This document shows, one piece after another, positions 21,734 through 24,642 of a DNA stretch of 25,035 nucleotides. Location: IMG/VR virus record IMGVR_UViG_3300027801_000151, positions 1 through 25,035 of that record. One strand, given 5' to 3'. Source of the DNA: a virus. Every line of letters starts with the position of its first letter. Within the stretch, counting starts at the first letter, position 1. The notes under the pieces were generated by a model. That model saw only the letters and a program-made list of their open reading frames with translations. It was not told the DNA's origin and did no database searches. A program made the position numbers and the translations under genes.

Positions 21734-21745
21734 TATTTATTTATT
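21734..21745 (-). promoter_or_regulatory. overlapping late-like boxes AATAAATA before gp16
   Basis: Two overlapping copies of AATAAATA on the minus strand (21738-21745 and 21734-21741), at the gp15 stop codon and 13-17 bases before the gp16 ATG. One mismatch to the late consensus; A-rich sequence makes chance matches possible. Confidence 0.35.
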
Positions 21746-22547
21746 CATCTGAATCCGTAGATGGGTTGTATTTTTTACCATCTTCAAACTTTGTTATTGT
21801 TGTAGTAAATCCAAAATCATCATCAGCGTCTGCCGTAGTAGGGTTTGGAATTACTACAATTCTTTCTTCTCTCGCTTTGTTTGTTGTATCAGTATCTGTA
21901 TATATATCAGATTGTACAGTTTTAACAACTTTTTGAGTTGATGCTGGTCCAAATAGATAAGTTTTTGCTGTGAAATTTAGAGTATAAACAACAGCTCTTC
22001 TAGTTGTAAAATCACCATTATAGCTATCTTCATAATTTACATCATTTAAAATGATTGGAACATCTCTCTTAATATCTAATTCAGGTATAGCATTAACAGT
22101 TACCGTATAGTCTGGTTGAAAGAATGGTAAAATTTGTTCTATGATTTGTAATCCACTTTCAGCCGTAGCAGTAAATACATTCAAAGTATAGCTCAGATTG
22201 TAAGGAACTGGAGTGTAATTAAAGTTTAATATTTTTCCATCTTTACCTGTCTTAACAGTTTTATACTTCTGCATTCTTGTAAGTTTACGACTTGAATCGT
22301 AACTGATACCTGTGATTTCAAAACTCATACGAGGTAATGTAATCGCAAATTCTCTTTTATTTAAATCGGGTTGTTGATCTAATCTTACTAAAAACTTTTC
22401 TTTTGGTGCATACGCTAACGGAACTTTAATAGCTTGAGTAACAGTACCAGCAGAGTCTTTTCTTTTAATTTGTATGTTATTGAAGAGCTGACCAAATGCA
22501 ATGGTCATTCTTCTCATACTTTCGTTATAAAAATATTGTCCAAACAT
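21741..22547 (-). CDS. 15: tail sheath stabiliser gp15
   Basis: 268 residues (T4 272). Caps the tail and joins it to the neck. The N-terminus MFGQYFYNESMRRMTIAFGQ, followed by LFNNIQIKR and IKVPLAYAPKEKFLVRLD, then LPRMSFEITGISYD, is the gp15 family signature; later strands (IPIILNDVNYED-type segment, VVYTLNFTAKTYLFGP) also fit. The ATG follows directly on the gp14 stop (TAGATG) without its own ribosome site, so it is coupled to gp14. Confidence 0.95.
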   Translation of the reverse strand: MFGQYFYNESMRRMTIAFGQLFNNIQIKRKDSAGTVTQAIKVPLAYAPKEKFLVRLDQQPDLNKREFAITLPRMSFEITGISYDSSRKLTRMQKYKTVKTGKDGKILNFNYTPVPYNLSYTLNVFTATAESGLQIIEQILPFFQPDYTVTVNAIPELDIKRDVPIILNDVNYEDSYNGDFTTRRAVVYTLNFTAKTYLFGPASTQKVVKTVQSDIYTDTDTTNKAREERIVVIPNPTTADADDDFGFTTTITKFEDGKKYNPSTDSDE

Positions 22548-23831
22548 CTAAATATCTATATCTCCAAAAGGGTTACGTTCTGTAAAATCTAATATATCAT
22601 CAGCTGTAGAAGCGGTATCAAAGCCAGCTTGACTATCTAAATCTAAATTATCAGCATATGTTGATTGTGTTTGTATGCTATAGTCTTCATTAATAAAGTA
22701 GTTAACTTCTCCTGAAGCACTATCATTTTCTAATATAACTGCTCCAGTTGCGCCTGTGTTTTCACTTATAGTTACAGTAGGACTTAATCCAAGATAACTT
22801 GAACCATCTACAGTAATGTTTATTTTTGTTAATACACCAGAAGTTAAAACACCAGCAGCCGCCGCTGTTACTGCGACACCTGTTCCACTAACTGCAACAC
22901 TTGTTATAGAAGAAATATCCGTAATTGTAGGAGTAGTTATTGCTGTAATTCTACCATTGGTTAATGACACAGCTGCAGAACTATTTGTTTTAGTTGTAGT
23001 ATCTGTTGCTACATAAATTAATGTAACAGTTGGTACTAAACTATAACCACGACCTGGGTTACTAATAGTAAATGAGGATAATGTACTACCAGATAAGTTT
23101 GCTGATACTACACCATTTATTGTAGCAGATGGTGCTGAAATTGTAATTGTAGGAGCTGTTGTGTATCCTTCTCCACCAGAAATAATTGGAATAGAAGTAA
23201 CTTGGTCACCGGTAACTACCGGAGAACCTAACACGGCACTAAACGTACCTGATTCCAATGATGTTTGGTATAGTGTTTGATTTAATGAATATTTATCTTC
23301 GGCACCGTCAATCGCAGCAATACCTGTATCTAATTTTTCACTAGAGTATTCCCAACGTGTGCATCTTAATTTGTAAACAGGTAAGTTACCTAATTGAAAG
23401 AATGGCTCTTGATCTTGTATGAATTGTATCTCAAAAAAACTTTCCATCAGAGGCATATAAATAATATCACCTTCGTTAGGTCTTCCTTCAACTATCATTG
23501 TATGAGCACTATCAACTTGATTTTGCCATCTTCTTTTAGATATTATGAAAGTTGTATCTTCTCTTATCTCTAAACCAAATTTATTAATAATCTCTTGTTC
23601 GCCAGCGAAACCTTCTGTGGTTTCCATATACATTTCTAGTAAATAGGAATCATCAAATTTAGCAAGAGTGTCCTCTCCTAAAATTAAATCTCGATTAACT
23701 AGTGTTCGTGGTAAATAATAACAGTCTTGTCCGTAAATTTTTAAACCTTCAATGATTAAATCTTCGTAAAGTCTTTTCTCATTGCTGTTTCCAATACCTG
23801 TTCCACCTTGAAAATAATGATTTGTTGCCAT
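22548..23831 (-). CDS. 14: neck protein gp14 with a large repeat insertion
   Basis: 427 residues against about 256 in T4. The N-terminal ~200 residues are a standard gp14 (YGQDCYYLPRTLVNRD, EMYMETTEGFAGEQEIINKF, ISKRRW, GDIIYMPLMESFFEIQF, LRCTRWEYSSE). The last ~55 residues, ending DFTERNPFGDIDI, are also gp14-like. Between them, about residues 205-370, lies a Ser/Thr/Val/Gly-rich insertion with repeats of the form GxGYxxxPTVTIS. The two flanks form one uninterrupted frame, so this is an inserted domain, not a broken gene. The insertion probably adds an exposed beta-structured domain to the neck. Five bases separate its ATG from the gp13 stop. Confidence 0.92.
   Translation of the reverse strand: MATNHYFQGGTGIGNSNEKRLYEDLIIEGLKIYGQDCYYLPRTLVNRDLILGEDTLAKFDDSYLLEMYMETTEGFAGEQEIINKFGLEIREDTTFIISKRRWQNQVDSAHTMIVEGRPNEGDIIYMPLMESFFEIQFIQDQEPFFQLGNLPVYKLRCTRWEYSSEKLDTGIAAIDGAEDKYSLNQTLYQTSLESGTFSAVLGSPVVTGDQVTSIPIISGGEGYTTAPTITISAPSATINGVVSANLSGSTLSSFTISNPGRGYSLVPTVTLIYVATDTTTKTNSSAAVSLTNGRITAITTPTITDISSITSVAVSGTGVAVTAAAAGVLTSGVLTKINITVDGSSYLGLSPTVTISENTGATGAVILENDSASGEVNYFINEDYSIQTQSTYADNLDLDSQAGFDTASTADDILDFTERNPFGDIDI
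22770..23177 (-). repeat. beta-repeat region coding for GxGY..PTVTIS units inside gp14
   Basis: Three recognisable units begin at residues 219 (GGEGYTTAPTITIS), 260 (GRGYSLVPTVTLI) and 343 (GSSYLGLSPTVTIS). The intervals are 41 and 83 residues, i.e. one and two periods of about 41; the region near residue 301 where a fourth unit would fall is Ser/Val/Ala-rich and has lost the motif. Confidence 0.75.
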
Positions 23832-23835
23832 GACA

Positions 23836-24642
23836 TTATCCGATCATAAGAGGTTGTGACATTTCAAATGATTTTCTTATTTCATCTTCTATTTTTTCAA
23901 TGTCAGTTAATGCTTCTGAAAAAATTTGTTGACCATTTAATGTAACGCCACCTAACATAGCAACTCCATTAAATTTAGATAAGTTTGAACCCCATTGTTT
24001 TTTAAACAAAGCAGTTACATATCTTTTTAAAATCATGTCATTATAAACGTCTGTGTAAACATTTGGATCTAATTTTCTATAACACTCTATAACTAAAAAC
24101 TCACCAACGAGTAAATCTTCTTTCCAATCTTGGTCAATATATAATCTGTTATCGTTTTGATTAAATCTTATAGGTTTTTCTCCTACTAGAATATGATCTA
24201 AAAAATCTAAATGCCTCATTACAACATCATAGTTAACAACTGATGTTGAAGAAAAATCGTATAGATCGTTTAATCTCATTTGATATCTAACATCAAATAA
24301 GTTCATACTACCTTTTGAGGAGTATGGGAATATGTTAATAACGGAGATAACACTTTCAGGAACTACTATAAAACCATTACCTTCTTGCCAAGCAGATGTA
24401 ACTGAATTTTTAGTTACTGATTCACTAGTGTTGGCTGTTATTCTATCGTAATCTGTTTGTGTATATTGATACTTTAAGTATGTTCTTCTAATACCATCAT
24501 AATGATATTGTTGATAAAATTGTAATGCTTCGTCAATTCTATCTTCTAATTGGTCATCTTCTGCGTTAATCTCTATCACAGGTTTCCCAAGTGCCCTTAA
24601 AGCGTATTGTTTTAACTGTTCTCTGCTTGCTGGTTCTGCCAT
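23836..24642 (-). CDS. 13: neck protein gp13
   Basis: 268 residues (T4 309). Head-completion protein that joins portal and tail with gp14. The N-terminus REQLKQYALRALGKPVIEIN, then QLEDRIDEALQFYQQYHYDG, and later ISVINIFPYSS, FDVRYQMRLNDLYDF, LVGEFLVIECYRKLDP and LKRYVTALFKKQWGSNL match gp13 of T4-like marine phages. AAGGAAA lies before the ATG, 29 bases after a consensus late promoter. It is the first gene of the minus-strand late cluster. Confidence 0.95.
   Translation of the reverse strand: MAEPASREQLKQYALRALGKPVIEINAEDDQLEDRIDEALQFYQQYHYDGIRRTYLKYQYTQTDYDRITANTSESVTKNSVTSAWQEGNGFIVVPESVISVINIFPYSSKGSMNLFDVRYQMRLNDLYDFSSTSVVNYDVVMRHLDFLDHILVGEKPIRFNQNDNRLYIDQDWKEDLLVGEFLVIECYRKLDPNVYTDVYNDMILKRYVTALFKKQWGSNLSKFNGVAMLGGVTLNGQQIFSEALTDIEKIEDEIRKSFEMSQPLMIG

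Follow-up and report, generated by a model that had tools for sequence, protein, structure and literature searches.

In phage T4, the neck structure report describes gp14 (256 aa) as a hexamer on the gp13 ring, with its C-terminal arm (residues 178–256) bound to gp15 and becoming ordered there at tail joining; the same report has fibritin binding gp13 rather than gp14 (PMC12270204). Such a stopper has to retain the packaged DNA and later open towards the tail, so little change is expected in it. Accessory domains of Ig-like or sugar-binding type have been described in several published accounts, on the sheath as well as on the neck and head (PMC9230969, PMC6669499, PMC11821841, PMC9958956, PMC3797505). 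The neck passage structure of 936 lactococcal phages, Hoc and other Ig-like decorations are, as far as these accounts go, external neck or head beta-domains that vary between close relatives. They sit on separate proteins, and cell binding by the 936 structure is reported as shown. The locus described here likewise has a predicted beta module at the neck that varies between close relatives, but its carrier is a T4-type stopper, and adhesion is here a proposal only.

This locus lies in a virus record of 25,035 bases (the window, meaning the whole stretch analysed), in which T4-type structural genes occupy the minus strand. Gene 14 (22548–23831, minus strand) encodes a neck or head closure protein of 427 aa. 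Its residues 16–188 match Pfam T4_neck-protein (PF11649) at E 1.2e-34, residues 17–172 match solved T4 gp14 chains in the PDB at E 6.8e-26, and the protein matches the PHROG head closure profile Hc2 at E 7.7e-90. It stands between gene 13 (neck protein, 268 aa; 23836–24642, minus strand; PHROG head-tail adaptor Ad2, E 7.1e-43) and gene 15 (tail sheath stabiliser or terminator, 268 aa; 21741–22547, minus strand; Pfam PF16724, E 8.9e-82), neither of which has an insert, in the T4-type order 13-14-15. Judged by these matches and this position, the window's gp14 is a T4-type head closure or stopper protein, agreeing in family, gene order and core with T4 gp14 (PF11649; PDB 9lu4–9lu7 and 9mkb). Unlike the T4 protein, it carries an insert of about 167 residues, placed after the stopper barrel and before a C-terminal arm that is conserved.

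Three parts can be told apart along the protein, all on the minus strand. The N-terminal stopper core (residues 1–188; 23268–23831) is delimited by the Pfam and PDB matches and is common to long and short relatives. The inserted module, predicted to be all-beta (residues 195–361; 22749–23249), is missing in short relatives, is predicted to fold alone and has been exchanged as a tract. The C-terminal arm (residues 362–427; 22551–22748) is present in long and short gp14 and corresponds by place to the T4 arm as that is described. In alignment the insert begins near T4 gp14 residue 208, that is, within the 178–256 arm. An earlier note on this DNA had read the N- and C-terminal parts as lying in one frame and the T4 protein as lacking the insertion, and both readings hold: gene 14 is a single open reading frame, and the T4 protein has no insert. 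The note's inserted domain is real too, supported by the alignment of long and short forms and by fold predictions, but it is wider than the 22770–23177 originally given, which covers only residues 219–354. Within the window, the insert family profile matches gp14 alone; the next-best open reading frame (E 0.032) is on the opposite strand.

The insert is a variable possession of otherwise similar proteins. Relatives came from searches of viral contigs with gp14, one giving the best 80 of 255 and another the best 80 of 576. The best 80 of 255 comprised 29 long gp14 proteins, 49 short ones and two fragments, and long and short forms are alignable on both flanks of the insert. With fragments, exact duplicates and named phages excluded, 111 gp14 proteins remained for tree building; 40 contain the insert (427–431 aa), its length constant among them, and 71 do not (256–271 aa). 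Outside the insert, 35 aligned short forms are 70–82% identical to the window's protein, and the best named match, gp14 of Pelagibacter phage Mosig (272 aa), has no insert. Because so many close relatives do without it, the insert is not needed for head sealing or tail joining.

Repeats of the same type, found with a widened motif pattern, occur in gp14 of five of ten named relatives. These five are Kyanoviridae cyanophages (PHROG 460) with the repeats at the same place in gp14: S-CAM8 (357 aa), S-CAM4 (374 aa), P-SSM2 (470 aa), ACG-2014f (492 aa) and S-8S56 (644 aa). They differ from the window's protein in their lengths, in longer linkers and in having one to seven motifs by pattern, somewhat more by eye. 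The other five, in which the pattern finds no repeats, are Mosig, P-RSM6 and S-WAM1 (291 aa each) and S-RIM44 and S-CAM1 (292 aa each). The earlier note had proposed aligning gp14 from marine T4-like phages for presence, copy number and place of the insertion; presence thus varies, as does motif number among the named cyanophages, and place does not. In the open-access literature, a scope outside which most subscription papers fall, we found no account of marine T4-like gp14 that describes a repeat insert. The repeat is nonetheless already in the databases as a sequence feature, since the PHROG Hc2 profile includes about 80 positions of it.

Within the insert we recognise four units, with boundaries placed by eye: residues 211–250 (23082–23201), 251–293 (22953–23081), 294–333 (22833–22952) and 334–361 (22749–22832), all on the minus strand. 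Units 1, 2 and 4 carry a shared motif at residues 220, 260 and 343. The three units first noticed in the sequence are therefore real, although they had been placed at 219, 260 and 343 with steps of 41 and 82, where the spacings are 40 and 83. Shuffling the protein 200 times gave on average 0.03 motifs against the three observed, using a pattern that was widened once the units had been seen. Self-comparison of an insert profile built from 17 rows put its top two off-diagonal scores, 55.5 and 48.8, at offsets of 83 and 40, against a maximum of 39.2 among 500 column shuffles of the profile. The window's sequence by itself gives a weaker repeat signal, its best score being reached by 8 of 500 shuffles. 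In comparisons of units, 1 and 2 match with z 5.4, 2 and 4 with p 0.002, and 1 and 4 with p 0.018.

Unit 3 is the odd one. Its second half matches the second half of unit 1 better than any of 2,000 shuffles, whereas its first half matches no unit (p 0.59–0.66), and the unit as a whole matches neither unit 2 (p 0.90) nor unit 4 (p 0.22). A drifted fourth unit, suspected in the earlier note near residue 301, is thus borne out for its second half only. The motif of unit 3 is absent throughout the family alignment of 48 rows. Because this loss is common to the whole alignment, it does not reflect recent decay of the repeats, a possibility ruled out also by the constant length (427–431 aa) of the 40 insert-bearing proteins.

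Structure prediction, which the earlier note had named as a check, gave a confident separate fold. Modelled alone from the 48-row alignment, the insert forms beta strands with a mean pLDDT of 88.7 and a pTM of 0.70, and within a model of full gp14 it is likewise confident and made of beta strands. The insert is accordingly predicted to fold by itself as an all-beta module. That full model places most of the core below pLDDT 50 and gives no direction for the module. Structure comparison of residues 236–319 returned weak Ig, FN3 and CBM-like matches, the best at Z 5.3 (5.4 with the full model). A CBM21 fold match (Z 5.3 over 75 residues at 3.0 Å) lies within about 1 Z of FN3 and Ig domains, and because such scores are low and nearly tied, they indicate no specific kinship with CBM, FN3 or Ig domains. 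One FN3 match to parts of residues 194–362 (rank 32, Z 3.4) hints at a nested layout of two sandwiches in which the ends of the insert would meet. The insert had no Foldseek match at E 0.001, no Pfam family at E 1 and no NCBIfam match, and comparison of its fold and its Pfam results identified no sugar-binding site.

The history of the insert is separable from that of its carrier. On a core tree built with the insert columns removed, insert presence changes seven times (bootstrap range 6–8), gains and losses being indistinguishable; at least four changes are forced by well supported branches, and a single insert-bearing clade is rejected (p-AU 0.00024). Exchange is visible at the window itself. 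In 100-base steps over gp13–gp16, the window is 91–100% identical to one relative, L006, except at 22801–23000, where identity drops to 83–88% and a second relative, L009, is 98–99% identical to the window. Diagnostic sites, counted as window agreeing with L006 against window agreeing with L009, run 44:8 in gp13, 34:10 in the N-terminal part of gp14, 7:40 in the insert, 32:1 in the C-terminal part of gp14, 166:7 in gp15 and 97:6 in gp16. A Fisher test of 22801–23200 against the remaining gp14 gives p 1e-14, for an interval picked after the profile had been seen, and a further relative (L012) and a pair (L007 and L011) agree with the pattern. Taken together, the diagnostic sites and the identity profile show that exchange of the module took place independently of its flanks; on this sequence evidence, the window's insert is from a different lineage than the gp14 around it.

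Across the 40 insert-bearing proteins, pairwise identity of the insert has a rank correlation of 0.35 with that of the N-terminal core, lower than the 0.70 between the C-terminal arm and the N-terminal core, the pairs not being independent. Median dN/dS is 0.24 for the insert, 0.11 for the N-terminal core and 0.19 for the C-terminal arm, values drawn from non-independent pairs at high dS. The insert thus appears to be kept by selection, though more loosely than the core.

The same repeat recurs on other virion proteins. Searched against viral contigs, the insert profile matched 65 loci, 58 of them at 50–100% identity; the other seven are L223–L229, six of which were inspected individually. Among 50,697 phage records, 143 match the window's insert, and 133 of these are named as Synechococcus phage, Cyanophage or Prochlorococcus phage. 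The profile also matches PHROG 460, 5342, 701 and 19630 (E 1.2e-10 to 5.6e-7), the matched PHROG profiles being those of head closure, fibre, baseplate and structural proteins, and giant structural proteins match as well. Two tail sheath proteins hold the repeat inside the sheath, one on a viral contig (L223:1599-3032; residues ~144–238) and the other in Escherichia phage Alux-21 (L230:3560-4984; residues ~142–236). From these matches we take the insert to be a member of a virion repeat family of marine T4-like phages that is carried on several outer proteins.

A fainter resemblance extends to T4-type gp18. At E 0.01 the insert profile found a match in all 11 genomes searched (ten named relatives and one Tequatrovirus), and the match in the Tequatrovirus (L241) is to gp18 residues 100–157 (E 0.0014), which fall in domain I (residues 98–188) as T4 gp18 is described in PMC3004832. 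This match is weak, with a PDB E of 0.14 and hhalign probabilities of 34% and 10%, and none of 923 scored shuffles was as high. T4 gp18 domain I was not among the matches listed in structure searches with the insert. Domain I of T4-type gp18 may be an old member of the repeat family.

The neighbouring neck proteins vary in their own ways. In five insert-bearing relatives (L028–L032, for example L028:586-1824), gp13 is 416–422 aa long rather than about 270, with an insert of its own of about 150 residues that weakly matches a T7 tail fibre N-terminal family (E 0.0018, below the acceptance cut-off). Mosig gp15 (L002:3819-5417) has 532 aa against 268 in the window, owing to a C-terminal extension with pieces of the insert-type repeat at both ends and a different domain between. 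No Pfam family matches this extension at E 1; by eye, it has a LamG-like look. A different small insert lies near the C-terminus of gp15 in P-RSM6 (L232:2787-3716) and S-8S56 (L238:2580-3665). After gp15, six relatives (L015, L016, L019, L038, L053 and L064) have an open reading frame of about 460–480 aa in the place that the small terminase gene occupies in other loci, and in Mosig an annotated heme oxygenase and phycocyanobilin:ferredoxin oxidoreductase (L002:916-2152) stand directly upstream of gp13. A trade-off, with a module on just one of gp13, gp14 and gp15, found no support in lengths at 109 distinct loci: gp13 exceeds 330 aa at four, all with long gp14 (gp13 being missing or cut at 16), and gp15 does so at one, Mosig, with short gp14 (gp15 being missing or cut at 26).

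What the module does is best explained, tentatively and with rather less than even confidence, as a mobile accessory all-beta domain displayed outside the neck at the gp14–gp15 joint for weak adhesion. It occupies the linker between the stopper core and the C-terminal arm; if gp14 is hexameric as in T4, six modules would project at the head-tail joint as an outer ring beside gp15. Through such a ring, phages that lack fibritin whiskers could make many weak contacts with the surface of the host or with the surroundings. That the module lies outside the neck is a fair inference from the position of the T4 arm at gp15, as the T4 report gives it, and by analogy with the same repeat in tail sheaths. 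We favour an accessory surface role because the module is mobile, because it occurs on outer proteins, sheaths among them, and because accessory domains on sheath, neck and head have already been published. The main rival to surface adhesion is bracing, in which six copies would reinforce the neck once the tail has joined, by packing on gp15, on the top sheath ring or on each other, and would play no part in adhesion. The insert does lie within the gp15-binding arm region of the T4 account (PMC12270204), its length is constant in all 40 insert-bearing proteins, and tail cementing has been suggested for extra sheath domains (PMC9230969). A brace would nevertheless have to be dispensed with in 71 of 111 gp14 proteins, come or go about seven times on the core tree and be exchanged apart from gp15, and in the window's clade the adjoining gp15 differs by no insert of its own. 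We consider bracing possible but unlikely.

Less probable again is a selfish or nearly neutral passenger, spreading because outer loops of virion proteins tolerate it and of little use at the neck. Patchy presence on the core tree, occurrence in many unrelated virion proteins and selection looser than on the core all suit a passenger, but its dN/dS, dozens of invariant columns and constant length do not. Improbable by a wide margin is an anchor for whiskers or neck fibres, comparable to fibritin on T4 gp13, a role the earlier note had floated. In pelagimyophages a large variable host-recognition cluster adjoins the neck gene, according to PMC7029224, which would suit an anchor. The fibritin family (PF07921), however, was found in none of ten related complete genomes and in the one Tequatrovirus control (the window's own genome being a 25 kb fragment only), and the T4 anchor protein is reported to be gp13, not gp14 (PMC12270204). 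Because fibritin is missing in all ten relatives, whisker-holding by the insert is unlikely. The window's gp13 is shorter around T4 fibritin-binding domain III (190–239), but lacks only 20 of its 50 residues, together with 171–189, and 12 other gp13 proteins lack 20–21 of the 50.

Weak adhesion by a displayed module, our preferred reading, could be part of something broader, which we put forward as a less probable conjecture. In fibritin-free marine T4-like phages, exchangeable beta-modules may dock on gp13, gp14 and gp15, giving the head-tail joint a ring of six or twelve swappable adhesins. These would take over from the T4 collar and whiskers the task of outside contact, and lineages would trade them by recombination at the insert edges. 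Whatever its role, the C-terminal linker of gp14 takes a module of 167 residues (several hundred in S-8S56) that is gained or lost and swapped while the remainder of the gene stays. If the surface reading is true, very common marine phages would have in the neck an exposed, evolving site that has been overlooked.
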